A stretch of DNA of 64,000 nt from Salinibacter ruber DSM 13855 (GCF_000013045.1 NC_007677.1:3454001-3518000); one strand, 5' to 3'; positions 19,599-62,361 are shown, counted from the stretch's first letter. Numbers and translations are program-made. Notes: a model not told the origin generated them from the sequence alone.

Positions 19599-21323
19599 CT
19601 ATTCCTCCTGCACGAGCCAGGCCCGGTCGATCGCCCCGTCGGTCACGCGGTACAGCAGCACCTGAGACAGGGGCGTCTCGCGGCCGGGCAGGTTTCGGAT
19701 GGTCTCATGGGCAGTGAAGGTGGGGCCCACGGTCGTGTGGTAGTGAAACTCGGAGTGTAGGTTGGTCGCCCCCTCAAGGAGAGGCCGGTACTGCGTCGCG
19801 AGGGTGTCGCGCCCCTCCATCACGAGCGTGTTGGGGGGGCGGTACACCTTCACGTCGTCGGCGAGGGCGTCGAGAAAGGCGTCCGGGTCGTGGGTGTTGT
19901 ACGCATTGTGCAACTGGAACACCACCTCTGCCGGCGTCCGCGGCACGAGCCTGTCGGGGGCGTAGATGCGTCCCTCCTTCACGACCCGGTGGATGGACGT
20001 GACGTGTTTGATGTCCGCGAAGGGGTCGCGGTTGAGCACCACGAGGTCCGCCATCATTCCGTCCTCAATCCGCCCGAGGTCGTCACGCCCCATGAGCCGG
20101 GCGCCGCCCGCCGTCGCCGTTGCCAGAATCTCGCGGGGCGTGAGGCCAGCCGTGCGCATGAGCTCAAACTCGCGAAAGAGGGCCGGCCCGTGCGGCGTCC
20201 CGATATTGCCCGCGTCGGTGCCGGCCACGACGTCGATGCCGGCCTCGTAGAGCCGCTTCAGGTTGCGCATGGCCGTGGTGTCGGACGGCACCGTCGGGGC
20301 CTGCCGGATGCGCCGGCGGAGGCCGGTCGGGACGAGCGAATCCGGAAGCGTGCGCAGGTCGGTGAGGGAGTTGATTACGTCCTTCTGCCCGATGCGATGC
20401 TCGGCAAGCGTCAGGTCGAGCTGCTGGGCAAACGTTTCGCCGTAGCGCTCACCCACCACGAGCGTCGGCGTGTAGAGCACGTCGTTCTCCCGAAGGAGCT
20501 GCACGAAGGCGTCGTCGACCGGCTGGTCGGACACGCTGTGCACGAGGATGTCCGCCCCGGCCTCAACGGCCGCCCGGGCGGTCTCCAGCGCGGTGGCGTG
20601 GACGGCCACCCGGGTGCCCGCGTTGTGGGCCTCGTCGATGGTCGCCTCGACGACCGGACGGTAGTCGGCCGGGGTCTCGTCCCCGCCCACGATGTACCAG
20701 ATCTTGATGAGGTCCACCCCGGCCATAATTTGGTCGCGGACCTCTTCCCGGGCCGCCTCCGGCGTCGTGATCTGCAGGATGGGCGGATCGCCCTCGTCGA
20801 GCGACGGACGCGCCACGCTGGAGAGGAGCGGGCCCGCCGTCACGACCGTCGGGGCCATGGCCGCGGTGTCGGCGCGGGCCCGCACGTCGAGGTTCCACAT
20901 CGGCCCGCCCACGTCCACTACGCTCGTCACCCCACTGCGCAGGTACCGCCGGAAGGTGTCCGGGAGCCGCTCCTTGATGCGGCGCAGCTCTTCGGCGTAG
21001 GGGCGTTCGGCGCGCAGGTCGATCACGTCGGGGCGCGTGTAGAGCCCGCCGCTCTGGAAGAAGTGGACATGGCCGTCGACGAGACCCGGCATCACGTACT
21101 TGTCGGGCATCTCGTGCACGGTCGCCCCGGGGGGCACCGCCACCTCGCTCGACGGCCCCACCGCGGCGATGCGGCCGCCCTCCCACAGGACCGTCGCGTC
21201 CTCAATCACCGTGGAGTCGGCCGGGTTGAGGGCCGTAGGGCCGACCAGGGCGGTGGGCTGGGCCGCAGCGGGCCCCAACGGGAAAAGACCGGCGAGAAGG
21301 AAGAGAATCCAGAATCGGCGCAT
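19599..21323 (-). CDS. Secreted amidohydrolase fused to an NTF2-like domain
   Basis: A 574-residue exported protein: signal peptide (FLLAGLFPLGPAAAQ), a metal-dependent amidohydrolase domain (about 25-445) with the ligand motifs VDGHVHFF, KIWYIVGG, VAVHATA, ILVHSVSD and GTDAGN, then a C-terminal SnoaL/NTF2-like domain of about 115 residues (FQLHNAYNTHDPDAFLDALADDVKVY). The amidohydrolase part resembles imidazolonepropionase/prolidase-type secreted enzymes. The NTF2-like tail may be a second binding or catalytic cup. Divergent from the toxin-antitoxin module. Confidence 0.88.
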   Translation of the reverse strand: MRRFWILFLLAGLFPLGPAAAQPTALVGPTALNPADSTVIEDATVLWEGGRIAAVGPSSEVAVPPGATVHEMPDKYVMPGLVDGHVHFFQSGGLYTRPDVIDLRAERPYAEELRRIKERLPDTFRRYLRSGVTSVVDVGGPMWNLDVRARADTAAMAPTVVTAGPLLSSVARPSLDEGDPPILQITTPEAAREEVRDQIMAGVDLIKIWYIVGGDETPADYRPVVEATIDEAHNAGTRVAVHATALETARAAVEAGADILVHSVSDQPVDDAFVQLLRENDVLYTPTLVVGERYGETFAQQLDLTLAEHRIGQKDVINSLTDLRTLPDSLVPTGLRRRIRQAPTVPSDTTAMRNLKRLYEAGIDVVAGTDAGNIGTPHGPALFREFELMRTAGLTPREILATATAGGARLMGRDDLGRIEDGMMADLVVLNRDPFADIKHVTSIHRVVKEGRIYAPDRLVPRTPAEVVFQLHNAYNTHDPDAFLDALADDVKVYRPPNTLVMEGRDTLATQYRPLLEGATNLHSEFHYHTTVGPTFTAHETIRNLPGRETPLSQVLLYRVTDGAIDRAWLVQEE

Positions 21324-21411
21324 GGTACTGAGGGCAGTCGCAAGAAACGCGGGTCAGATAACGTACCCACTGGTGGGGAGAGGTGCAGCCGATGCTCACC
21401 GGACCTTCTCC

Positions 21412-21431
21412 ATGTCTTAATGTTATGACAT
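21412..21431. promoter_or_regulatory. Possible operator palindrome upstream of the AbrB-like gene
   Basis: ATGTC (21412-21416) and GACAT (21427-21431) flank an AT-rich centre, 36 bp before the antitoxin start in an AT-rich intergenic stretch. AbrB/MazE-type antitoxins commonly autorepress by binding such palindromes. The assignment is positional only. Confidence 0.35.
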
Positions 21432-21467
21432 CCGTAGTTACGAAAATACCAACTGCCAGATTCTGCC

Positions 21468-21698
21468 ATGCCAGAAGAGACCACGATCCGTCGCATCGGA
21501 AACTCCTCGGGGCTCACCATTCCGAAGGATCTCCTGGACCGTCAGCACCTGGAAGAGGGCGACCAGGTTCATCTCGTCGAAACGGAGGACGGGCTCCTCA
21601 TCACGCCCTACGATCCCGATTTTGAGGACGCGATGGAGGCCTACGAAGGGGGAGCCCGGGACTACCGAAATGCACTCCGTGCGCTCTCTGACCAGTAG
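21468..21698 (+). CDS. AbrB/MazE-family antitoxin
   Basis: A 76-residue protein with an N-terminal swapped-hairpin DNA-binding domain of the SpoVT/AbrB type (TTIRRIGNSSGLTIPKDLL, then EEGDQVHLVETEDGLLITP), and a C-terminal acidic helical tail (DFEDAMEAYEGGARDYRNALRAL) of the kind that neutralises a partner toxin. It is 18 bp upstream of a Doc-like toxin gene in the same direction, the usual antitoxin-toxin order. Base composition begins to fall in this region. Confidence 0.88.
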   Translation: MPEETTIRRIGNSSGLTIPKDLLDRQHLEEGDQVHLVETEDGLLITPYDPDFEDAMEAYEGGARDYRNALRALSDQ

Positions 21699-21716
21699 TC
21701 CTCACGCCTGAGATGG

Positions 21717-22094
21717 ATGAACCCCGCTGGCTCACCCGAAAAAGTCGCCGCAATTCACGACGATCCGTTGAAGCAGCACGGCGGCCTGCCCGGTGCTCGC
21801 GATGAGGGTGCGGTTGAGTCGGCACTGGCCCGCCCAAAGCATCTCCAGACCTACGGCGACGATCCGAGCGTGCACCGGCTTGCCGCCGCGTGCGGCGTGG
21901 GGCTGGCCCGCAATCACAGCTACCGCGGCGGCAATAAGCGCACGGCCTTCATGGCGATGTACGTGTTTTTGCGGCTTAACGGACCCCGGATTGACGTTGA
22001 GGAGATGGCCGTCGTGGACCTGATGAGGTCGGTTGCTCAGAGTGACGGTGGCGAGGAGAAGCTTGTCGTATGGCTTGAAATGCACGCGACCTGA
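21717..22094 (+). CDS. Doc-like (Fic fold) toxin, probably damaged
   Basis: A 125-residue protein of the death-on-curing family, whose members phosphorylate EF-Tu. Recognisable: VAAIHDDPLKQHGGLPGARD, ESALARPKHLQTYG and the Fic motif region NHSYRGGNKRTAFMA. Two anomalies: the acidic residue of the HxFx(D/E)GNKR motif is Gly71, and the family N-terminus (M-x-EP-x-WL) is encoded in another frame from ATG 21713 (MDEPRWL), shifting into this frame near 21734. The protein may be an inactive remnant still translated from ATG 21717. Confidence 0.75.
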   Translation: MNPAGSPEKVAAIHDDPLKQHGGLPGARDEGAVESALARPKHLQTYGDDPSVHRLAAACGVGLARNHSYRGGNKRTAFMAMYVFLRLNGPRIDVEEMAVVDLMRSVAQSDGGEEKLVVWLEMHAT

Positions 22095-22173
22095 AACCTC
22101 CCGATATCATAATTTTCACTCTGCCGTACTCGCTTTAGAGGCACCTGGAGCAGGAAAATTCTCTAAGTCCAAT

Positions 22174-25100
22174 ATGGAACCGTCAGTACCACACCCGGAA
22201 GGCCAAGAGGAACGTCAAGCCACTGGTACACATGGTGGAATTGTGTACCAGGCATGGCAGGCAGTATATGCTTGGCTGAGATTGAGTCGAGGAGAGGTCC
22301 TCTTTCTTGAGCACGCCGAAGACTTCGATGTTGCCTCTGAGGATTCAGTTGAGGGAACGCAGGTAAAAAGAAAAGAGGGTGAGTTGTCTCTCGGACGCGA
22401 AGCTGCTCGAGATGCAATCACCAACTACTGGCAATTACGAACCGATGAGGACCGGACGGTCAAATATCGGCACCTCACAACAGAGAGCAGGGGATTTGAA
22501 CAGGGGGATCCGTTCGATGGTCGAAAAGGACTCGATGTGTGGGATGACGCTCGAAATCGAGGTGAGGCGCTTAGGGTGATCGTGGATTACCTGAAGGACC
22601 AGGATCTCCCGAAAGATCTGATTGCCTTTCTGGAGTCAGAGCCAATTGAGAGAGTCCGCAATGAGCTGATTTTACCCATTCATTGGGATACTCAGGCTTC
22701 AGGGGGAGAGAAGATTAAAGAACTCGTAGATGAGCATCTGATTGAGCACGGTCAGCGTCAACGCAAACCGGTCCCGCCGCGGATTTCGAAGCAAGTTGCA
22801 AGCTCTCTCTTCACGAAAGTCACCGAGGAATCTGCTGAGGAAAGTCCGCGCAGGCTGACTTTCGCGGATTTTGCTGACCTGTTCGAGAGAGAAACGATGG
22901 AGCGGGTTCCTGGCGGTACCCGTGGCGCTGCAAACGTCTACCGCTCGGACTCCACTCAGGCATCACTGCAAACAGGTGCCCCAGGATTCCTCGAACTCGT
23001 GGAAGGAACTCTGCTCTCTGCCGTAGTGCCGAGAACCAATCTTGTGCAGAGGGTTCGAGAGCGTGCAGATAGCCTTCCTCTTTCCGCTCTAGTTGGGTCT
23101 TCTGGAATGGGAAAATCAACGCTTGCAATGCTTTCCGCCGAAGAAGGGGGATGGTACTTGATAAACTTTCAAGGGAAGGACTCTGGTCAAATTCAAAGGC
23201 TGCTGAATCAGGCTACTTTGAGGCTTGCTGACGTTCCAGACGGAAGCACGGTTCTCCTTGACAACCTCAACTTTGAAGGGAGTGTTGAAGAATATGTCGA
23301 GGCCTTCCGAAAATTGATCACCGCTGCGTGGGAGCAAGCAATTCATATTGTGGTAACCACCCAGAATCCCATACCATCCCGCATCAAAGCCCTCATACAA
23401 ACAGATCCTGAGAAAATCGGGATCCCCGTGCCTCCTTTTGATGAGGAAGAGGTCAAGGCCCTGCTTGAAGAGTATGGATGTCCAGAAGCCATCCGAGAAG
23501 CTTGGTCCACAGCTACGATGGCTCAGACATCGGGGCATCCTCAACTTGCCGACGCCTATGTAGCTGCTGCAAGCCAACCCCACTGGCAAGAACCGTCCGA
23601 GAGAGATTTATTTGAGGACCCTGCACCGATCGAACAAGTCAAGAAGGAGGCACGGCAAAAACTTCGTCGGGGACTGCCCGAAAACTCATTGGTGCTTGCA
23701 AGGCGTCTGACTCTCTTGTCTCATCCCTTCACGCGGGAGCATGCACTCAAAATCGCTGAGATCCCTCCTCCAATTCCCACTGCTGGGACGGATTTCGATT
23801 TCCTTGTCGGTCCATGGATTGAACCTCTACCAGCCAATCATTTTCGGATATCCCCACTACTCTCAAACCTATACAATGACACGCTTTCCGAAGATGAGCA
23901 GCATAAACTTCGCTACGAGATTGCAAACTCACTGGTAGGGGCAACTCGTGAGAAGTCCTCTATAACTACTTATGAGCTCAACGAAATTCTTTCGCATGGC
24001 TTGCTTAGTCAGAACGAAGGTGCTTTAGCATTTGCCGCCTCGGCGTGCAATGACTTTGAGAATTTGTCAGAGGTCGCCCCTCATATCCAGTGGTTTGCAG
24101 CAGCTAAGACTGGAGGTGCTCAAGGAATTCTAATTGAGGGAGATCCAGGCCTCAGTTCACAGCTTCGGTTTATACAGTTTCGAATTGCTGTTGCGACCAA
24201 CCAAAGTGTGACTCCCATCCTTGATGCCTGGGAATTTGAACACAACCAGCTTAGGAAGTCGCACCCCCTAAGGGATGCCCTTGATGTCGTACGTGGAACT
24301 GCGGTGCTGAGTCACCCTCAGGCAGATGTACACATCGAACGTGTATTTCGACTTGCACGCCCCATTGTGGAGGTGGATCTTGCGTCGGTAGAGGAATCTA
24401 ATCTGACGAGCAAATTGGAGGAAGCAATTGAGAAAGCCCGAGAGACCGGGGATCGTTCACAGGTTCACGCCTTGCAGGCGAAAGGACTTCTATCGGGGAT
24501 CAACTCACAACTACCTTCTTCTCACGTAGCGGAGATGGTTTCGTATCACGCAGAGGGAGCTGGGGAGGTCCTTGAGTTTGTTAAACTGGCTGTTGGAGAA
24601 ACGACTTCACTTGGGTCAGTCCTGACCGAGGAACTGAGAGAAAACGTCCCACTCACGAATGGACTTACGAGTCGACCCTGGCTCAGAATGGCCGAGCAAG
24701 ACGATCCTGATTGGGGAATTGTTCTGGAAGCCTTCGACTGTCTTCTTGAGCTTGCAGAGGAAAACGGGCTCGATGCGCTCCTCATGGCGACGGAGAGAAA
24801 CCGTGCAATCATCAACTACGAGTATCTGGGCGATGAAAATAAAGCTGTAGAGGTACTATCTGAGGCAGAGGAGACTGTCGGTCCACACCCCCTTCTTAAA
24901 TCGTATCGGGCGAAGATGAGAAACATGGAGGGTGACTACGAGAGGAGATTAGAAATATTAGAAGATATCCTTCCTGGCTGGCAGCCTACCAGTCCTACAA
25001 CACCCAAGACGCATATTTTCCACGACGCAATTGAGGCAGCTGGTAATCTCGGTAAATGGGATCGGGCCACCTACTGGGCACAGAGAGGCCAGGAATCTGC

Positions 25101-26202
25101 TAAGCCCCTTTCAGAGGTATCTGGGCCTTACGTAGAATTGTGCTACGCTGTCGATAAGGCTTTTTCGACGTATAAGGACGAAGATACATGCGAGGCCCTT
25201 GAACTCCTTGGCAACTCGATATCACGGCTTCCGGCTCCCTCAAATCCACGAATACGGATGCTCTACCGGCGTGCTGCACATGTGACAGTCTGGATTCATC
25301 AAGACCTTGGAGGGTTAGAACTTTCCGATATACAGGAACCATCACCTGGCCTTGCCAGCCAATTTGAGGCCGACTCCGAAGAAACTGACGCCGATGTCAT
25401 GGAGAAAAAAGCTCTATTCTCCATACTGGAGGAGAGCACCAACCTGGCAGACTGTGGTGAAGTGGATCTCGAAGTGGCCCACGCGGCTGAGGCTGGAAAT
25501 ATAATGACCCAGTCCATGGGTGCGATGCGAGAACTTAACCAGGGAATTCGAATTGCGGCCGGGGACCTTCCTGATCGGTTTGTAGCTATGATCGAGACTG
25601 CCAGGGAAAGATTAGCGGCAGAGGGGCAGTCGCCTCCTACAGATGATCTAGAAGTTCAAGAGGTCCTCCATTTGCTAACGTATGGTGTCATCAATGAGCT
25701 CGCCTCCGAAACCCCGGATTCCTCTGTTCTTGCTGAGTGGAGGAGTCGCCTCGAAGAGATAGCCTTCGATGTCTCATCTGCCACTTCGTGGTTTGATGTC
25801 GCTGAAAAAGCATTCTCGTCGGCCAATGGTGACCGACGAACTCTGGTCGAGTTAACCCACCTCCTTCAAAACAAGGGTGCCCTACCAAACGAACGGCTCG
25901 TTGCAGCGGCTGCCCTTGCACGAGGCTCCAGCGATGAGAACACTAAGTTGCTCTCGCTAGCAATACTCGTCACATCGGCGGCAAGAGATCCCTTTGGGGT
26001 CGCCGCGAACAATGCTATAGCAAGTCTTGCCGGTGTGGATGTTAAACCGGGCAACGGCATACAGGAGGCCGCTAGGGCTATCATCGAGTCGGATCAATTT
26101 GAGGCACTAAGCTTGGACTCGAACTTTAAAAACACACTTCGTGAGATTACGGACGGCAACATCGACTGGGGAGTGCCGACAGCCAGTACTCAGAGCCTCT
26201 AA
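22174..26202 (+). CDS. Nuclease-STAND NTPase, candidate Avs-like antiphage protein
   Basis: A 1342-residue multidomain protein starting at ATG 22174. N-terminus (about 18-200): a PD-(D/E)xK-type fold resembling the Cap4/DUF4297 nuclease, with GGIVYQAW, HAEDFD (E49/D50/D52) and TQVKRK (Q63, K65). Centre (about 285-480): a P-loop NTPase with Walker A GSSGMGKST (308-316), Walker B TVLLDNLN (D363) and sensor-like IVVTTQNP. The remaining about 850 residues are helical, TPR-like, without further recognised domains. This nuclease-STAND-sensor layout is that of Avs immune sensors, which detect a phage protein and then cleave DNA. The gene is visibly AT-richer than the chromosome and follows a toxin-antitoxin pair, suggesting acquired defence. 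The C-terminal sensor is unlike anything I recognise. Confidence 0.85.
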   Translation: MEPSVPHPEGQEERQATGTHGGIVYQAWQAVYAWLRLSRGEVLFLEHAEDFDVASEDSVEGTQVKRKEGELSLGREAARDAITNYWQLRTDEDRTVKYRHLTTESRGFEQGDPFDGRKGLDVWDDARNRGEALRVIVDYLKDQDLPKDLIAFLESEPIERVRNELILPIHWDTQASGGEKIKELVDEHLIEHGQRQRKPVPPRISKQVASSLFTKVTEESAEESPRRLTFADFADLFERETMERVPGGTRGAANVYRSDSTQASLQTGAPGFLELVEGTLLSAVVPRTNLVQRVRERADSLPLSALVGSSGMGKSTLAMLSAEEGGWYLINFQGKDSGQIQRLLNQATLRLADVPDGSTVLLDNLNFEGSVEEYVEAFRKLITAAWEQAIHIVVTTQNPIPSRIKALIQTDPEKIGIPVPPFDEEEVKALLEEYGCPEAIREAWSTATMAQTSGHPQLADAYVAAASQPHWQEPSERDLFEDPAPIEQVKKEARQKLRRGLPENSLVLARRLTLLSHPFTREHALKIAEIPPPIPTAGTDFDFLVGPWIEPLPANHFRISPLLSNLYNDTLSEDEQHKLRYEIANSLVGATREKSSITTYELNEILSHGLLSQNEGALAFAASACNDFENLSEVAPHIQWFAAAKTGGAQGILIEGDPGLSSQLRFIQFRIAVATNQSVTPILDAWEFEHNQLRKSHPLRDALDVVRGTAVLSHPQADVHIERVFRLARPIVEVDLASVEESNLTSKLEEAIEKARETGDRSQVHALQAKGLLSGINSQLPSSHVAEMVSYHAEGAGEVLEFVKLAVGETTSLGSVLTEELRENVPLTNGLTSRPWLRMAEQDDPDWGIVLEAFDCLLELAEENGLDALLMATERNRAIINYEYLGDENKAVEVLSEAEETVGPHPLLKSYRAKMRNMEGDYERRLEILEDILPGWQPTSPTTPKTHIFHDAIEAAGNLGKWDRATYWAQRGQESAKPLSEVSGPYVELCYAVDKAFSTYKDEDTCEALELLGNSISRLPAPSNPRIRMLYRRAAHVTVWIHQDLGGLELSDIQEPSPGLASQFEADSEETDADVMEKKALFSILEESTNLADCGEVDLEVAHAAEAGNIMTQSMGAMRELNQGIRIAAGDLPDRFVAMIETARERLAAEGQSPPTDDLEVQEVLHLLTYGVINELASETPDSSVLAEWRSRLEEIAFDVSSATSWFDVAEKAFSSANGDRRTLVELTHLLQNKGALPNERLVAAAALARGSSDENTKLLSLAILVTSAARDPFGVAANNAIASLAGVDVKPGNGIQEAARAIIESDQFEALSLDSNFKNTLREITDGNIDWGVPTASTQSL

Positions 26203-26220
26203 TAATACTCGGCAAACATG

Positions 26221-26303
26221 TCGCTCTGAGCTTGACTCAGAGCCAAGCGATTGACGAGGTAAATCAAGTTCGGAGCGACGGAGGATGGACTGTTCGAAAC
26301 AGT
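26221..26303. repeat. Two hairpins after the STAND gene
   Basis: GCTCTGAG (26223-26230) pairs with CTCAGAGC (26236-26243), with a possible outer TCGCT/AGCGA. A second perfect hairpin, ACTGTT-cga-AACAGT, lies at 26289-26303. Neither has a T-run. They sit between the defence gene and the convergent thioredoxin gene and may terminate or stabilise transcripts, or mark the edge of the insert. Confidence 0.45.
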
Positions 26304-26352
26304 ACCACTGGCTTTGATAAGCCTTCTCAGTAGTTCAACACTCCTCTCGTAC

Positions 26353-26946
26353 CTACCGTCGCAATCGAGACTGCTTGAGGTCTGATCGCATTGACTCGTC
26401 CACCAGCCTCTCCAGCGCGTCGTCGAGCGCCCATTTGAGGATCACGCCGCTGTGCTCGTACCGGATGCGGCCCTGCTTGTCGATCAGGTAGGTGCGCGGC
26501 ACCGCCTCGCCGGGAAAGTGACGGGCGGCCAGTCCGGGATCGACGATCTGTGGGAAGTTGACGCCCTTTTCCTCCACGAAGGGGCGCACCGCCTCCGCCC
26601 CGCCCCGGTCCACCGCAATCCCGACGAACTGCACGCCCGCGTCCTCAAACTCGCGCTGCAGGTCCACGAAGCCGGGCATCTCCACGCGGCACGGCGGGCA
26701 CCAGGTGGCCCACACGTTCACCACCACGACCGCCCCGCGGTGGTCCTCAAGCCGAAAGCGATCGCCCTCCAGCGTCTCGGCCGCCACCGTCGGGGCCGGG
26801 CGTCCCTCCGCGGCCAGCTCAATGCTCGGCATGTACTGCTGATAGACGTAGATCCCCATCACCAGGAGCACGGGCCAGTGCCAGTAGGCCCTGACGTAGG
26901 TCCAGACGATGTGCCACGGGGAGCGGTCGCGATCGGAATCCGGCAT
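26353..26946 (-). CDS. Membrane-anchored TlpA-like thioredoxin
   Basis: A 197-residue thiol-disulfide protein with one N-terminal transmembrane anchor (about 20-38, WPVLLVMGIYVYQQY). The periplasmic TlpA/ResA-type domain has the active site WATWCPPCRVEMP, a cis-Pro region (EAVPRTYLIDKQGRI) and the characteristic central insert. It probably keeps cytochrome or other exported cysteines reduced. It is downstream of a second TlpA-like gene in the same direction, 56 bp apart. Confidence 0.88.
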   Translation of the reverse strand: MPDSDRDRSPWHIVWTYVRAYWHWPVLLVMGIYVYQQYMPSIELAAEGRPAPTVAAETLEGDRFRLEDHRGAVVVVNVWATWCPPCRVEMPGFVDLQREFEDAGVQFVGIAVDRGGAEAVRPFVEEKGVNFPQIVDPGLAARHFPGEAVPRTYLIDKQGRIRYEHSGVILKWALDDALERLVDESMRSDLKQSRLRR

Positions 26947-54709: not shown

Positions 54710-54749
54710 CTCAATAATGAGCATCACACCTCAAGAATGAGCGTCACGA
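54710..54749 (+). repeat. Near-perfect 20-bp tandem duplication spanning the lacI-type start codon
   Basis: The 20 nt at 54710-54729 and 54730-54749 differ at only three positions (CTCAATAATGAGCATCAC versus CTCAAGAATGAGCGTCAC). Each copy contains an ATG-AGC. Only the second (54737) is in frame with the LacI protein; the first opens a 7-codon minicistron ending in the second copy. Confidence 0.85.
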
Positions 54750-55732
54750 TTCGCGATGTCGCCGACGAGGCAAGTGTATCGGCGACCACTGTCTCACGAG
54801 TCTTCAACCACGACCACCTGGTCAACAGCGAGACTCGGGAACATGTGCTCGAAGTAGCGCAGCGCATGGGCTACGCTCCCGATGCCACTGCCCGAAGCCT
54901 CAGCAGTGGCCGTACGCGTTCCATCGGGGTCATCCTCCCCGCCCCGCACGGCGAGTTTTTCTCGGAGCTGATTCGGGGGCTCGACGACGCCGCGCAGGAG
55001 GCCGACCATTTTCTACTCATCGCGAGTTCACACTACAACCCGGATGAGGGCAGGTCGGCCTTGGAATCACTGGCTGGGCGCGTGGACGGGCTGGTGATTA
55101 TGACGCCTCGGGCGCGGTCCGATCCGTTGACCGAAGGAATGGACCTTCCGACGGTTTTCGTTAACAGCGAGCTCCAGGGGGATGCTTTCGACCTGTACCG
55201 CATGGAAAACCGTGAGGGTGCTGCCCACGCAGTGCGTCATCTGATCGAGGCGGGGCATTCCCGGATTGCCGCCATCACCGGACCGCCTGGAAGCTACGAC
55301 GTGGAGCGGCGGATGCGGGGCTATCGCGACGCCCTGGCTGAGCACGATCTCGACGAGGGTCCCCTCGTGGAGGGGGACTTCACACAGAAAAGCGGCTACC
55401 AAGCCGGGAAAAAACTTCTCGAGGGAGAGGAACTCCCGGACGCGGTTTTTGCCTGCAACGACTACATGGCGATTGGAGCCATGCTGGCCTTTCAGGAGTC
55501 CGGACTTCGCGTGCCCGACGACATCGCGGTGGCCGGGTTCGACGACATCACGAGTGCCCGCTACGCCAATCCCCCGCTCACCACGGTGCGGGTCCCGGTG
55601 TACGAGCTAGGCCGGCGGGCCGGGGAGCGGCTTCTCCAACGCGTGCAGTCCAGCCGTCCGCCAGAGTCCGAGACCTTTCGCGTCCCCCACGAGCTGAAGG
55701 TGCGCGACAGCACGAAACCGCGGGACTCGTGA
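54737..55732 (+). CDS. LacI-family transcriptional regulator of the glycan locus
   Basis: A 331-residue repressor. The N-terminal helix-turn-helix (TIRDVADEASVSATTVSRVFN) and hinge (ATARSLSSGRTRSIGVILP) precede a periplasmic-binding-protein-like sensor (about 60-325) with GFDDITSARYANPPLTTV and VELGRRAGERLL-type C-terminal segments. It probably senses a sugar from the locus. Operator-like GAAAC/GTTTC palindromes upstream of susC are the likely target. It is 139 bp upstream of the symporter gene. Confidence 0.94.
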   Translation: MSVTIRDVADEASVSATTVSRVFNHDHLVNSETREHVLEVAQRMGYAPDATARSLSSGRTRSIGVILPAPHGEFFSELIRGLDDAAQEADHFLLIASSHYNPDEGRSALESLAGRVDGLVIMTPRARSDPLTEGMDLPTVFVNSELQGDAFDLYRMENREGAAHAVRHLIEAGHSRIAAITGPPGSYDVERRMRGYRDALAEHDLDEGPLVEGDFTQKSGYQAGKKLLEGEELPDAVFACNDYMAIGAMLAFQESGLRVPDDIAVAGFDDITSARYANPPLTTVRVPVYELGRRAGERLLQRVQSSRPPESETFRVPHELKVRDSTKPRDS

Positions 55733-55871
55733 CGGGTCCATGGGGGCGTCACGTCTCGATTGATCCCAGGCGGGCCGGGAAGATGACTTCTCCTGCGTCC
55801 TGAAAGCCGAGGGGGGACCCTCATCGCCTCCGTCGTCTGACAGTTGTGGCCACACACGGCCCCAGTGCCCT

Positions 55872-57413
55872 ATGCGATCTGGCTCATTCGGCATTCTTGA
55901 CTGGGTCGCAGTTGCGGGGTACGTCCTCGTCATCCTCGGCATCGGATTTTGGGGAACGCGCCGGTCCGACACGAGCGATGACTACTTTCTCGCGGGGCGC
56001 TCCATTTCTTGGCCCCTCACGGGCCTTTCGCTGTTTGCGACCAACATGTCAGGGAGCACCCTGGTGGGCCTGATTGGGGGCGCGTACCAGATGGGACTCG
56101 TCATCTACAACTACGAATGGACGGCGGTCGTCGCTCTCCTTGTCCTCATCTTCTTTTTCCTCCCTGTCTACCGTCGTCTCGGCATTACGACGGCACCTGC
56201 GTTTCTGGAGTATCGCTTTGACGTGCGCACCCGAAAGTACTTCTCGGCCCTCGCTCTCACCGGGAACGTCTTGATCGACATGGCGGGCACGCTTTACGCG
56301 GGAGCCATCGTGATGCGGGTCGTGCTTCCCACGCTGTCGCTAGAAGTGTGTGTAGGGGTGCTTGCCCTCCTGGCGGGCATGTACGCCATCGCAGGGGGGC
56401 TTCGCGCCGCCGTCTATACTGATGTGCTCCAGGGTGTCCTCCTGCTCGCGGGTACAGCCTGCGTGTCGGCGGCAGCGTACTGGCAGGTGGGCGGATGGGG
56501 GGCAGTTGAGAGCGCCACCACCCCGTCCATGCGAAACCTCATCCTTCCAGCTAACAGTGAGGTTCTCCCGTGGCCTGGCCTCTGTACAGGCCTAATGCTG
56601 CTGGGTGTATATTACTGGTGCATCAATCAGGTGATGGTGCAGCGTACGATGGCGGCACGCTCACTTGATGAGGCCCGGCAGGGAGCACTACTTGCCGGAG
56701 CACTTAAACTCCCGGTTTTGATCTTGATGGTAATGCCTGGCCTTCTCGCCTTAGTTCTGTATCCTGATCTACAGAATCCGGACCTCGTCTTTCCAACACT
56801 CGCGTTTGATCTTCTTCCTAGCGGTCTACGTGGCCTTGTCCTAGTGTCGTTTGTTGCGGCAGTCATGTCGTCCGTCGACTCCGTGCTAAACTCCGCGTCG
56901 GCCCTCCTCACGATGGACTTCTACGCGGCGCTGCGCCCAGAGGCATCAGAGCGCCAACTTGTGCTCGTTGGACGGATCGTCGCCGCTGTCGTCCTGGTTC
57001 TCGGCGCTGCGATCGCGCCGCAAATTGCCCAGTTCTCGTCGCTTTGGACGTACCTGCAGTCCGCGCTCTCGTACCTCACCCCTCCCATCGTCGCCGTCTT
57101 CCTCGGCGGGCTCTTTGTCCGTCGCGTGAACCACCACGCCGCGTTTTTCACCCTCGTGGCCGGCAGCCTGCTGGCGCTCGCTCTCCTCCTCGTCGATCCA
57201 GGCCTACACTTCCTCTACGTGGCGGGCCTTCTCTTCGTGGCGAGTCTGGTCGTGATGGGAGGCGTCAGCTACGCCACGGCTCCCTGGATCGCCTCCGCCC
57301 CCAACGCGGCGGCCATGTGGCAACGGAGTGACTCGGACATCACCCCCGAAACGACGACGGCCACCATCCTCCTGCTCATCGCCATCGCCGTCACCGTCGG
57401 TCTTCTGTGGTAG
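55872..57413 (+). CDS. Sodium:solute symporter (SSS family)
   Basis: A 513-residue transporter with about 13-14 transmembrane helices. Family landmarks: FWGTRRSDTSDDYFLAGRSI, the sodium-site region SLFATNMSGSTLVGLIGGAYQMG, GGLRAAVYTDVLQGVLLL and VMSSVDSVLNSASALLTMDFY. It likely imports the sugar released by the locus using sodium, fitting a halophile. Composition is a little AT-richer between about 56.5 and 56.9 kb than neighbouring genes. Confidence 0.94.
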   Translation: MRSGSFGILDWVAVAGYVLVILGIGFWGTRRSDTSDDYFLAGRSISWPLTGLSLFATNMSGSTLVGLIGGAYQMGLVIYNYEWTAVVALLVLIFFFLPVYRRLGITTAPAFLEYRFDVRTRKYFSALALTGNVLIDMAGTLYAGAIVMRVVLPTLSLEVCVGVLALLAGMYAIAGGLRAAVYTDVLQGVLLLAGTACVSAAAYWQVGGWGAVESATTPSMRNLILPANSEVLPWPGLCTGLMLLGVYYWCINQVMVQRTMAARSLDEARQGALLAGALKLPVLILMVMPGLLALVLYPDLQNPDLVFPTLAFDLLPSGLRGLVLVSFVAAVMSSVDSVLNSASALLTMDFYAALRPEASERQLVLVGRIVAAVVLVLGAAIAPQIAQFSSLWTYLQSALSYLTPPIVAVFLGGLFVRRVNHHAAFFTLVAGSLLALALLLVDPGLHFLYVAGLLFVASLVVMGGVSYATAPWIASAPNAAAMWQRSDSDITPETTTATILLLIAIAVTVGLLW

Positions 57414-57508
57414 GCCCGGCGACGAACGGAAACGCTCCCCGGAGCGGCGGCCCGAAACGGCGCTCAGCGCGATGACACGGCGGGTCGGGACACAATCCTG
57501 TGGTCCAC

Positions 57509-57589
57509 TTGACATTTTGATAACCTCCGGTTTATTATGAAACCGGTTTCTTGAAACCCGTTTCACTCCAACAATTCGTTTCAAGAAAC
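57509..57589 (+). promoter_or_regulatory. susC promoter with phased LacI-type operator array
   Basis: TTGACA (57509-57514), 18-nt spacer, TATTAT (57533-57538), then directly GAAACCGGTTTC (57539-57550). Half-sites GAAAC/GTTTC start at 57539, 57546, 57553, 57560 and again at 57578, 57585: alternating orientation, 7-nt pitch, 2-nt gaps. CpG-centred palindromes of this kind are typical LacI-family operators. Binding here would block initiation of susC. Confidence 0.75.
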
Positions 57590-57656
57590 CGACCAGACGG
57601 AACCGCTCCCGGCCTCCGTCCCACGCGAACACTTCCTAAGCGATTTGCTCAGCATC

Positions 57657-60600
57657 ATGCTCTGGAAAAAAGCGCTTTTATCGTTCGCCCTGCTGTTGAT
57701 GGGCGGGGTCGGTTCCGCCATCGCCCAGACTGGGACCATTACGGGGATGGTGACGGAGGCCTCGTCTGGAGACGCCTTGCCGGGTGCAAACGTCGTCATC
57801 GTTGATTCTCAGCGAGGCACAAGCACCGACGCGGACGGGGCGTTTCGCATCCCTGGCCTCGAACCGGGGACGTACCAAGTTCGGGCCTCTTTCGTAGGAT
57901 TCCGTTCTCGCACCCAGGAGGTCGATGTGGCGGCCGGTGAGACCCTTGAACTGAACTTTGCCCTGGCGCCGGACGCAATGGCGATGGACGAGATGGTCGT
58001 CGTGGGGTATGGCACTCAGGAACGGAGTGATCTTACTGGCTCGATTTCATCGGTGCCCACGGAAGATTTAGCGGAAACCCCAATTGAGAGCGCTCAAGAG
58101 GCGATTCAGGGACGCGTGTCTGGTGTGACAGTGACTCAAAACACAGGAAGCCCGGGCTCTGGCTTCAGCATACGGATCCGCGGAACCGGCACTACGGGCA
58201 ACAGCAATCCCCTTTACGTGGTGGATGGTGTCCCGGTGTCGGATCCAACGGAAACGGGGGCGGGTGGCATCAGCTTCCTCAATCCCAACGACATTGAGTC
58301 AATCGACATTCTGAAGGGGGCGTCTGCGGCAGCCATTTACGGGGCACAGGCAGCCAACGGCGCGGTCATCATCACCACAAAAAGCGGAAGCGCCGGCGAG
58401 CGCAGCGTCAGCTTTAGTGCCTACACGGGCATCCAGCAAACGCCGCGCACGATCGACATGCTGGAGGGGCCTGAGTACGCCGCCCTGCGCAACGAGGCCA
58501 ATATCAACGCCGGTCAGGCGCCCACTTTCACGTCGCCGAGTGCCTACCTCGGTCCTGAAGGAAGTACAGACTATCAGGACTTGGTCTTCGAACGTGGGAT
58601 TACACAGAACTACAGCCTAGCGGTGTCTGGAGGGACCGAGGATCTGACGTACCGAATCAGTGGCGGGTACTTTGAGGAGGGAGGTATTATTGACAAGTCG
58701 AGTCTGGAGCGGCTGAATGCACGGGTCAACACCGAGTTCGAGGTCAACGACCTACTCACTGTGGGCGAAAACTTGACTTTCGAACGGAGGACCCGCAGCA
58801 CGATCTCAGAGTCGGACAATGTGCGGAATCTACTGATCCAGACGCTGCAGGTTGACCCCACGGTGCCGGCGCGCGACAGTGCAGGCAATTTTACGGCCCA
58901 ACCCCGCACGAACGCCAACAATCCGCTGGCTGCTCTAGACTTTCGGAATAACGAGTATAACGAGAACCGTCTCGTGGGAAATGTCTTTGCGGAGTTATCC
59001 TTTTTGCCGTCGCTCCGTGTTCGCTCTCAGCTCGGCTTTGACTTGCGTAACGGCAACACGTATGCCTTTACCCCGGAGTACGACATCAGCCCCAGCTTCC
59101 GCAACGTCTCCCCAAGCACCACGCAGTATTCGGATTTTCAGAGTTCGCTTATTTGGGACAATACCTTAACTTTTGACAAGGCTTTTGGCTCCCACGACGT
59201 GGAAGCGGTGGGGGGTACTACCATCGAGACGAACTACTACCGCTTCATCAACGCTACCACGCAGGGACAGCCGGGCAACGATCCGTCGCTCCGGTACTTG
59301 GGCGCTGGCCCCGAGGTCGTGAACATCGGCGGGAGCCTCGCGGAGTCGAACCTACTGTCGTTCTTCGGACGCCTCAACTACAACTTCTCGGACCGCTACC
59401 TGCTGACCGCCGTGGCGCGCTACGACGGCTCCTCGCGGTTCGGGGCGAACAATCGATTTGCGTTCTTTCCATCCGTCTCGGCGGCGTGGCGTATTTCTGA
59501 AGAACCCTTCTTCCCCGACAACGAACTGGTGACCAACCTGAAGCTACGGGCCGGGTGGGGGCAAAACGGAAACCAGCGCATCGGGGACTACCCGTTCGCA
59601 GCCACCATTGCCGGCAATCAGGACTACGTGCTGAACGGCCAGCTAGCTCCAGGGTCTGCTCCGCTGCAGTCGCCGAACCCTAACGTAAAGTGGGAGGAGA
59701 CAACTCAGACGGACATCGGGCTCGATGCGGCCTTGTTTGGCGACCGTCTGAACCTGAGCGCCGGGTTTTACAACAAGGTCACCTCCGATCTGCTGGTGTC
59801 TCTCCCCCCGATTCCTACGAGCGGTCTGGTGAGTGCCAGCCCCGAGAACGCCGGAGAAATTCGGAACCGCGGCTGGGAGTTTTCGGCCGACTACTCTCTG
59901 ACGCCGGCTGAAGATCTGACCGTACGGGTTGGCGGCAACCTGACGACCCTGAGCAACGAAGTGGTGAGCCTCGCCCAGTCGACCGACTTCGTGATCAATA
60001 GCGGAAACTACCGAAACGGATCCATCACGCGCACCGAGCCGGGCCACCCGGTTGGGGCCTTCTACGGCTACAAGACTGACGGCCTGTTCCAGACGCCGGA
60101 AGAAGTGGCCAACGCGAATGAGCTGAGTGACGAGGGACCCTACCAGAGCGCCGACACGGCGCCGGGTGACATCCGCTTCAAGGACCTGAATGGAGACGGG
60201 CAGATCACCCAGGCAGACCAGACCTTCATCGGCAATCCGACGCCCGACTTCACCTACGGGTTCAACCTGGACGTCGAGTACAAGGGGGTGAGCCTGAGCA
60301 CCCTTTTTCAGGGCGTGCAGGGCAACGACCTCTTCGCGGCCTACAAGTTCTACACGGTGTTCAACACGGCATTCAACATGAGCGAGGCCGTCAAGAACCG
60401 CTGGACGGGCCCCGGCACGAGCACCCGCATGCCCCGCCTCACGTCCTCTGATCCGAACCAGAACAGCCGCATCTCCGACTTCTACGTGGAGGACGGATCG
60501 TACCTCCGCCTTAAAAATGTCCGGCTGGGATACTCGGTGCCGTCGCGTCTGCTCAGCTCCCTCGGCGCCGGTCTGGATCGGGCCCGCCTCTACGTGAGCG

Positions 60601-60743
60601 CCAAGAATCTCTTCACGCTCACGGGATACGACGGCTACACCCCCGAAATCGGCGTCAACAACAGCACGCTCGACCGCGGCATCGACCGGGCCACCTACCC
60701 GCAGCCACGGGTCTACACCGTCGGCATCAACCTCGGCTTCTAA
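57657..60743 (+). CDS. SusC/RagA TonB-linked outer-membrane receptor
   Basis: A 1028-residue transporter. Signal peptide (LSFALLLMGGVGSAIAQ), carboxypeptidase-like CNA-B domain (about 22-105, GTITGMVTEASSGDALPGANV), plug domain with EMVVVGYGTQERSDLTGSIS, VDGVPVSDP, IDILKGASAAAIYGAQAANG and VIITTK, then a 22-strand barrel ending TVGINLGF. It imports oligosaccharides with SusD. ATG 57657 is preferred to a TTG at 57645. Confidence 0.96.
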   Translation: MLWKKALLSFALLLMGGVGSAIAQTGTITGMVTEASSGDALPGANVVIVDSQRGTSTDADGAFRIPGLEPGTYQVRASFVGFRSRTQEVDVAAGETLELNFALAPDAMAMDEMVVVGYGTQERSDLTGSISSVPTEDLAETPIESAQEAIQGRVSGVTVTQNTGSPGSGFSIRIRGTGTTGNSNPLYVVDGVPVSDPTETGAGGISFLNPNDIESIDILKGASAAAIYGAQAANGAVIITTKSGSAGERSVSFSAYTGIQQTPRTIDMLEGPEYAALRNEANINAGQAPTFTSPSAYLGPEGSTDYQDLVFERGITQNYSLAVSGGTEDLTYRISGGYFEEGGIIDKSSLERLNARVNTEFEVNDLLTVGENLTFERRTRSTISESDNVRNLLIQTLQVDPTVPARDSAGNFTAQPRTNANNPLAALDFRNNEYNENRLVGNVFAELSFLPSLRVRSQLGFDLRNGNTYAFTPEYDISPSFRNVSPSTTQYSDFQSSLIWDNTLTFDKAFGSHDVEAVGGTTIETNYYRFINATTQGQPGNDPSLRYLGAGPEVVNIGGSLAESNLLSFFGRLNYNFSDRYLLTAVARYDGSSRFGANNRFAFFPSVSAAWRISEEPFFPDNELVTNLKLRAGWGQNGNQRIGDYPFAATIAGNQDYVLNGQLAPGSAPLQSPNPNVKWEETTQTDIGLDAALFGDRLNLSAGFYNKVTSDLLVSLPPIPTSGLVSASPENAGEIRNRGWEFSADYSLTPAEDLTVRVGGNLTTLSNEVVSLAQSTDFVINSGNYRNGSITRTEPGHPVGAFYGYKTDGLFQTPEEVANANELSDEGPYQSADTAPGDIRFKDLNGDGQITQADQTFIGNPTPDFTYGFNLDVEYKGVSLSTLFQGVQGNDLFAAYKFYTVFNTAFNMSEAVKNRWTGPGTSTRMPRLTSSDPNQNSRISDFYVEDGSYLRLKNVRLGYSVPSRLLSSLGAGLDRARLYVSAKNLFTLTGYDGYTPEIGVNNSTLDRGIDRATYPQPRVYTVGINLGF

Positions 60744-60825
60744 ACGGCGCTCCACACGCCCTCCCGGCGCCCCACACGGGGCTCAGCCTCGACACACCCT
60801 TTCCACACCGACCGATTGATCGGCC

Positions 60826-62361
60826 ATGTACCGACGCCTTCTCTCCAGCCTCCTTGCGGCCGTCGTCCTCACCGCCCTCTTCACGGGGTGCGATAGCTTC
60901 CTGCAGAAATCGCCGCAGGGCGAACTGACCTCCGAGAATTTCTTCCGGAATGGGGAGGACGCCCAGCGGGCCCTGAATTCGGTATACGACTACGCCCAGG
61001 CGCGGTCGTTCGACTTCTTCCCGCCCTATCCCATGATTTTTGGCTCCATCGCCTCAGACAACGCCACGAAAGGTGGAGAAAGCGGGAGCGATCAGATCTC
61101 GGTCCAGCGCGTGGAGCAGTTCAATCCGCGCCCCACAGACCCGTACATCACCTCTACGTGGAATACGATGTACACGGGCATCTACCGGGCGAACCTCGTG
61201 ATTGCGAACGTGCCGGACATCGAGAGCATGAGCGCCAGTCAGCGCGAGCAGATTGTGGGGGAGGCGAAGTTTCTGCGCGCATACTTCCACTTCTACGCGC
61301 TGAAGATGTACGGCCTGGGTAACGACCGGGCCAACGACGGGCCGGGCATTCCCCTGATTACCGAGCCGCTTCCAGCTTCGGATGCCGACGTGCCCCGCAC
61401 GTCGGAGGCGGAGGTGTGGGCACAGATCGAGACAGACCTGCAGGATGCCGCCACCGCGATGGGGCCCACTGCGCCGGACCTGGGCCGGGCCACGGAGGGC
61501 GCCGCGAAGGCGTTGCGCGTGGAGGCACACGTCTTCCAGGAAGAGTGGAGCGACGCGCAGACCCTGGCCAGGGAAATCATCGACTCGGGCCGCTACAGCC
61601 TCGACCCAGACTACAGCCGCGTCTTTGACCAGCGTGGAGAGTTTGGCCCTGGGTCGGTCTTCGAAATTAACCATGTGGACCTCTCGAGTGCTCTAGAGGG
61701 CACGGTCGGGACCATCTACCAGAACAGCCGGGACACCTGGGGCTACGGATTCAACTGTCCCACTCAGGCGCTCTATGACGCCTTTGAGGCCAATGACCCA
61801 CGCCGAGATGCTACCATCATCGAGAGCGGCGAGACGATTACCGGTCCGGAGGGTAACACCGAAACGGTTGAAGTCGTCGGGGCCTGTGCCGCTAACGGTC
61901 CCGATGGATACCTCAACGAAAAGATGTGGCTGCCGGCCGCACGCCAGCCCTCTGGCCCCCGCAAGGGTCCCACGAATCGGCGCGTCATCCGCTACGCCCA
62001 CGTGCTGCTGTGGCACGCGGAAGCCGCCAATGAGAACGGCGATCCGCAGGCGGCACTGGAATCGCTGAACAAGGTGCGCGCCCGGGCCCGTGACGATGAC
62101 GACGATCCGTCGAACGATCCGGATGGGGTCCTCCCCGACATCACGACCGCCAACCAGAGCGAGCTCCGCGACATCATCTGGCACGAGCAGCGGGTGGAGT
62201 TCGCGATGGAGTACCAGCGCTTCTTCAACCTCGTGCGACAGGGGCGCACTGACTTGATGGCCGACGATGGATTTCAGGAGGGCGTCAACGAGCGCTTCCC
62301 CATTCCGCAGGAGCAACTCGACCAGGGCACGGCGCTCGACCAGAATCCCGGGTACGAGTAG
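60826..62361 (+). CDS. SusD/RagB surface glycan-binding lipoprotein
   Basis: A 511-residue lipoprotein (lipobox LFTGC) with the SusD N-terminal pattern SFLQKSPQGELTSENFF, TPR-like helices (IVGEAKFLRAYFHFYALKMYG, AAKALRVEAHVFQEEW) and the C-terminal ELRDIIWHEQRVEFAMEYQRFFNLVRQG block. It caps the SusC barrel and captures oligosaccharide. It starts 82 bp after susC, almost certainly in the same operon. Confidence 0.96.
   Translation: MYRRLLSSLLAAVVLTALFTGCDSFLQKSPQGELTSENFFRNGEDAQRALNSVYDYAQARSFDFFPPYPMIFGSIASDNATKGGESGSDQISVQRVEQFNPRPTDPYITSTWNTMYTGIYRANLVIANVPDIESMSASQREQIVGEAKFLRAYFHFYALKMYGLGNDRANDGPGIPLITEPLPASDADVPRTSEAEVWAQIETDLQDAATAMGPTAPDLGRATEGAAKALRVEAHVFQEEWSDAQTLAREIIDSGRYSLDPDYSRVFDQRGEFGPGSVFEINHVDLSSALEGTVGTIYQNSRDTWGYGFNCPTQALYDAFEANDPRRDATIIESGETITGPEGNTETVEVVGACAANGPDGYLNEKMWLPAARQPSGPRKGPTNRRVIRYAHVLLWHAEAANENGDPQAALESLNKVRARARDDDDDPSNDPDGVLPDITTANQSELRDIIWHEQRVEFAMEYQRFFNLVRQGRTDLMADDGFQEGVNERFPIPQEQLDQGTALDQNPGYE

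Follow-up and report, generated by a model that had tools for sequence, protein, structure and literature searches.

Salinibacter ruber DSM 13855, a bacterium and not a haloarchaeon, carries one large gene that joins a nuclease domain, a STAND-type ATPase and a long helical half. Is its product an immune sensor and, if so, of which family? With a probability of about 0.78, it is a stand-alone immune sensor of bacterial NLR/Avs design, made by a single gene and lying outside Avs1-5. The window, i.e., the whole stretch of 64,000 nucleotides that was analysed, had been read before, in a first-pass annotation that proposed an Avs-like sensor in an acquired defence island. Not all of this could be kept.

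The gene itself is as annotated, an intact open reading frame for one protein of 1342 residues. Its ATG at 22174 is favoured over a longer frame from 22033, since the homologues begin at the equivalent position. Scans for promoters and terminators gave signals near chance level. The features of the protein are the following:

22174-26202, plus strand: nuclease-STAND-TPR protein, whole gene, 1342 aa (open reading frame, homologue starts, GC3 0.49)
22213-22818, plus strand: PD-(D/E)xK nuclease, Cap4/DUF4297/LmuA-like, residues 14-215 (PADLOC, profile, model)
22321-22323, 22360-22362 and 22366-22368, plus strand: nuclease active site D50, Q63 and K65 (DUF4297 alignment)
23023-23613, plus strand: STAND P-loop NTPase, residues 284-480 (near-invariant columns, weak AAA_16, Foldseek)
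23614-23898, plus strand: winged-helix/arm region of the switch, residues 481-575 (conserved columns, model)
23899-25413, plus strand: TPR-like helical superhelix, residues 576-1080 (AlphaFold2, TPR profile, region identities)
25414-26199, plus strand: fast-evolving C-terminal tip, residues 1081-1342, candidate ligand-reading surface (region identities)

Nuclease, switch and helical arm

The N-terminal domain belongs to the Cap4/DUF4297 branch of the PD-(D/E)xK superfamily; it has the catalytic residues and the core fold. The PADLOC model of LmuA matches residues 13-236 (E 6e-9) and also 11 of 14 homologues. A search of PDB sequences with a profile built from 21 homologous nuclease regions detects the DUF4297 of HerA-DUF4297 (8xav) with an E of 6.6e-11, and D50, Q63 and K65 align in exact register with its D40, Q53 and K55. 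The nuclease mutant of HerA-DUF4297 is D40A/Q53A/K55A, and active-site mutations abolished defence (PMC11291478). Among 22-23 homologues E49, D50 and Q63 are near-invariant, while position 65 is K or, in several of them, R. Of the active site first read as E49/D50/D52 and Q63-x-K65, all stands except D52: position 52 is variable (D or Y) and not conserved, and D52 therefore probably lies outside the active site. The AlphaFold2 model of the N-terminal half (pLDDT 81.9; homologues from plasmid records were left out of the input rows) contains the expected alpha-beta-beta-beta-alpha-beta core, built from helix 20-35, strands 42-45, 51-54 and 58-65, helix 76-88 and strand 95-102. Foldseek with this model returns Cap4, LmuA and HerA-DUF among its matches. 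The earlier reading stood or fell with a nuclease fold at the N-terminus, and it was found by profile as well as by structure.

Curated models catch the domain poorly. Pfam Cap4_nuclease gives 15.5 bits, under its gathering cut-off of 26.2, and NCBIfam NF042945 (DUF4297_antiphage) a weak partial match to residues 14-98 (E 0.13, 11 of the 300 bits required). To judge by its scores, the nuclease is a divergent subfamily of Cap4/DUF4297, sub-threshold to the Pfam model.

The central part is a STAND NTPase with Walker A, Walker B, GxP motif and winged helix. The annotation had rightly pointed to GSSGMGKST (residues 308-316, Walker A) and D363 (Walker B). Both are near-invariant, as is GHP at 454-456, the position of the GxP motif, and so are W548, S560 and L562 within the winged-helix/arm region. 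No curated STAND model scores above threshold for the 1342-residue protein, AAA_16 and NACHT matching at sub-threshold level only; its relatives give weak nSTAND matches. By fold, the N-terminal half is best matched by the SeAvs3-terminase structure (Foldseek E 2e-12), then by CED-4, MalT, a STAND-TPR protein and plant NLRs; NRC4 is also among the matches. The TM-score of the whole N-half model against Avs3 is low (0.26). Such low scores result from differing relative orientations of the domains; the Avs3 match is supported by local structure and by its E-value and thus speaks for shared modules, not for a shared overall pose. Other searches yielded little: the PDB sequence search with the protein alone gave no match, whole-family profiles hit mostly the P-loops of AAA+ proteins (e.g., midasin and p97) and were uninformative, and from a viral fold library the N half drew AAA+ ATPases of a generic kind.

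The C-terminus is helical, as had been noticed from the sequence. It had also been described as a sensor of no recognised family, and this has to be corrected. The AlphaFold2 model of residues 575-1342 is a confident, all-helical superhelix without strands (pLDDT 82.5), the family profile of the sensor half weakly matches consensus TPR proteins (E 1e-3), and by fold the half matches superhelices of generic TPR and HEAT type. The arm is TPR-like. Its parts evolve differently. Segment 901-1080 is conserved about as well as the ATPase, or better, in most of six homologue pairs; residues 1081-1342 (~260) show the lowest or near-lowest identity of all regions in all six. Being the least or nearly least conserved region, this tip is the best candidate for the surface that would read the ligand.

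Known systems, relatives and neighbours

SeAvs3 (AVAST type 3; 8dgc) has the same parts, a Cap4-type PD-(D/E)xK nuclease, a central STAND ATPase and a long helical C-terminal sensor, yet its chain has ~2000 residues, compared with ~1340 in the present family. The order effector, STAND, helical sensor is common to Avs1-Avs5, and the 1342-residue protein has it too. No Avs model of PADLOC or NCBIfam, libraries that presumably contain such models, matches the 1342-residue protein at E<=1 in a search that had no positive control, and PADLOC's match none of the 14 homologues at 0.1. By curated models the protein thus appears to fall outside Avs1-5. "Avs-like", as first proposed, remains valid for the domain order and for Avs3 as nearest fold, but with no curated match it describes the probable mode of action, not the family.

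Similar designs are known. Those of the P2/P4 hotspots and of Avs5 share an effector-STAND-repeat layout with an interchangeable N-terminal effector (PMC12931631, PMC9122126). Avs5 (SIR2-STAND-TPR) and the TIR-, SIR2- or Mrr-STAND-repeat proteins agree with ours in layout and differ in effector; further, Avs5 has an nSTAND3 module, which the 1342-residue protein does not match. HerA-DUF4297 (8xav) has a nuclease of the same family with identical spacing of the catalytic D/Q/K, yet there a HerA hexamer acts as the separate ATPase, and a STAND or TPR half is absent. LmuA of Lamassu (PDLC03848; 9nxx) has a nuclease domain similar in sequence and structure; here, in contrast, nuclease and STAND-TPR form one chain, which lacks a conserved partner gene. 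LmuA acts together with the SMC-like LmuB. No LmuB, which Lamassu calls for, was found in the window, nor is one conserved at the annotated homologue loci.

Full-length homologues of the same architecture have about 1290-1460 residues, typically ~1330, and the closest is ~35% identical. The family is rare and scattered across same-order relatives, Proteobacteria, Deinococcus and a planctomycete. In the Salinibacter order it occurs in 3 of 114 genomes, this one included, and in the Mesorhizobium order in 5 of 298. Many homologues are carried on large plasmids, e.g., in Agrobacterium, Rhizobium, Bradyrhizobium, Paraburkholderia, Janthinobacterium, Caulobacter, Sphingopyxis, Ciceribacter and Deinococcus; further ones occur in Candidatus Brocadia (the planctomycete), Maritalea and Mesorhizobium. 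Phage records and viral contigs encode no relative that we could find. Peptide-pattern scans from the single protein detected none among genome or viral contigs; scans with subfamily alignments detected three in genomes and zero in viral contigs. We found no activity or phage assay for any member.

Trees of the nuclease/ATPase half and of the sensor half have 12 of 19 splits in common and few strongly supported conflicts, so that both halves mostly travel together. Free shuffling of sensor halves among nuclease halves is, on the same count, unsupported in the core family. Variants do exist. In a more distant relative from the same phylum (L043, genome G343) an NNH5 domain replaces the nuclease. 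A Burkholderia protein of 628 residues (L014) is a nuclease without the STAND half, and in Rhizobium leguminosarum (L009) the gene is split into a nuclease-ATPase gene and a sensor gene. A protein of 2175 residues from the Mesorhizobium order (L041:4605-11129) has only the N-terminal nuclease and P-loop region in common with the family; its remainder resembles nothing recognisable, and the protein gave no Pfam match. At L045:5088-6347, where an integrase and restriction-modification genes adjoin, lies a sensor-only remnant. It shares ~72% identity with the sensor from Agrobacterium fabrum, and the effector half seems to have been lost there.

The company of the homologues is of the defence type, not housekeeping. 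At 10 of 13 annotated plasmid loci at least one defence-type gene lies within ~7 kb, a count read from annotation and without a plasmid background rate. The neighbours comprise Qat, a CBASS cyclase, AAA-plus-helicase (Gabija-like) pairs, SIR2, TIR, HEPN and GTPase-associated genes (GASH); a same-order homologue has a type IIG restriction enzyme nearby. The family is mobile, patchy and clustered with defence genes, which are general traits of anti-phage systems. No partner gene is conserved across the annotated homologue loci, and this argues for a single-gene system. Two loci show peculiarities of their own. In Bradyrhizobium sp. 192 a second large STAND protein (L010:968-4951), with nSTAND3, HEAT repeats and a weak N-terminal LmuA match, lies ~2 kb upstream of the homologue. 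At L038:11677-13767 an MmeI-like restriction sequence and the C-terminal portion of a protochlorophyllide-reductase-type gene share one open frame; a defence gene may have inserted itself into a gene for pigment synthesis here.

Could the protein mainly guard against plasmids or foreign DNA, a Lamassu-like nuclease being set free once abnormal DNA is signalled by the sensor arm or by a host factor? LmuA is the closest nuclease by PADLOC, Lamassu has been described as acting on plasmids and phages (PMC10586767), and the large plasmids that carry so many homologues would fit. Yet neither an SMC-like LmuB nor any other conserved partner adjoins the homologues, and the STAND-TPR half resembles the protein-sensing Avs and NLR proteins. 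We consider this explanation unlikely. Very improbable is a non-immune STAND regulator with MalT-like signalling that uses a nuclease-like domain for DNA binding: the fold matches to MalT and a STAND-TPR protein are what it can claim, but near-invariant catalytic residues, a mobile, patchy distribution and defence genes nearby do not go with such a role, and an output domain of a transcription factor was not seen.

A possible mode of action

The stand-alone immune sensor, then, might work as follows. At rest, the TPR-like arm would keep the STAND ATPase closed. A molecule made by the invader, probably a conserved phage protein, would bind to the superhelix, most likely to its variable C-terminal tip. 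Nucleotide exchange and oligomerisation of the ATP-bound STAND modules would follow. In Avs3 and HerA-DUF4297, dimerisation of Cap4-type nucleases activates the cutting of double-stranded DNA (PMC11291478, PMC12198126). By analogy, the N-terminal DUF4297/Cap4-type domains would pair as dimers and cut double-stranded DNA via D50, Q63 and K65. The infection would be aborted by destruction of phage DNA and probably also of host DNA, and the cell would die.

Somewhat short of an even chance is given to a bolder version, in which the protein represents a new family of single-gene nuclease-STAND sensors with a TPR core of its own and a fast-changing tip, recognises a phage product that Avs1-5 do not see, and exchanges nuclease for NNH5 on a shared switch.

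If the mechanism is true, a distinct family would join the bacterial NLR-like sensors, with members in a halophile and among soil bacteria, from which few defences have been tested so far, and a new recognition arm would be available for pairing with its phage trigger. Domain swaps and a split gene, as they occur in nature, would serve as built-in tests of the sensing half against the killing half.

The insertion site in Salinibacter

How did such a gene come to its place? In base composition it is a clear outlier within the window. Its GC content is 52%, compared with 63-70% in the adjoining 2-kb bins, and its GC3 is 0.49, when most other genes of the window have 0.7-0.94. The AT-richer composition of the first-pass annotation is hereby confirmed and, judged by it, the gene is foreign. 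Its acquisition was recent. An ordinary sugar-uptake cluster at 54737-62361, with a LacI regulator, a sodium:solute symporter, a TonB-dependent receptor and a SusD-like protein, is also below most of the window in GC. The surroundings of the gene are:

19599-21323, minus strand: amidohydrolase, flank gene upstream
21468-21698, plus strand: AbrB/MazE-type antitoxin, 76 aa (Pfam MazE_antitoxin, E 1e-10)
21717-22094, plus strand: Fic/Doc toxin, 125 aa (Pfam Fic, E 1.5e-13)
26353-26946, minus strand: thioredoxin-like gene, flank gene downstream

The adjacent toxin-antitoxin genes had been correctly recognised. The AbrB-Doc pair, which ends 79 bp upstream of the STAND gene on the same strand, represents the sole other mobile-type genes at the site. 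Outwards from 21323 and from 26353 the genes are again of host type, which makes this a small insertion; of the "acquired defence island", acquisition and the defence-type setting remain, but not an island of several systems.

A search of 12 further Salinibacter genomes, not all of them complete, did not turn up the STAND gene. In four of these congeners both flank genes lie close together, with no STAND gene between them. In G004 the AbrB-Doc pair is followed directly by the downstream flank gene, with no STAND gene; G006 and G010 have the pair at the site, inverted and divergent, and G003 a remnant only. From this comparison, the site (21324-26352; congener loci L046-L049) is a small turnover spot that has gained the STAND gene. 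We saw no repeats at the boundaries of the insertion and no integrase gene beside it, and therefore we propose no transfer mechanism.

Two further explanations can be judged from here. That the STAND gene is cargo dependent on AbrB-Doc, both forming one addiction unit, is hardly credible: the two are close and on the same strand, yet G004, G006 and G010 have AbrB-Doc without the STAND gene, and no Doc neighbour occurs at the annotated homologue loci elsewhere. Just as little credit goes to a decaying, horizontally acquired relic devoid of current function, for which the distance to the nearest homologue might be adduced, since a full-length frame of such length, with all motif residues intact, is unlikely to survive long drift.

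One more congener (G012, L050) has ~7 kb of other genes between the flank genes, together with a second thioredoxin-like copy.
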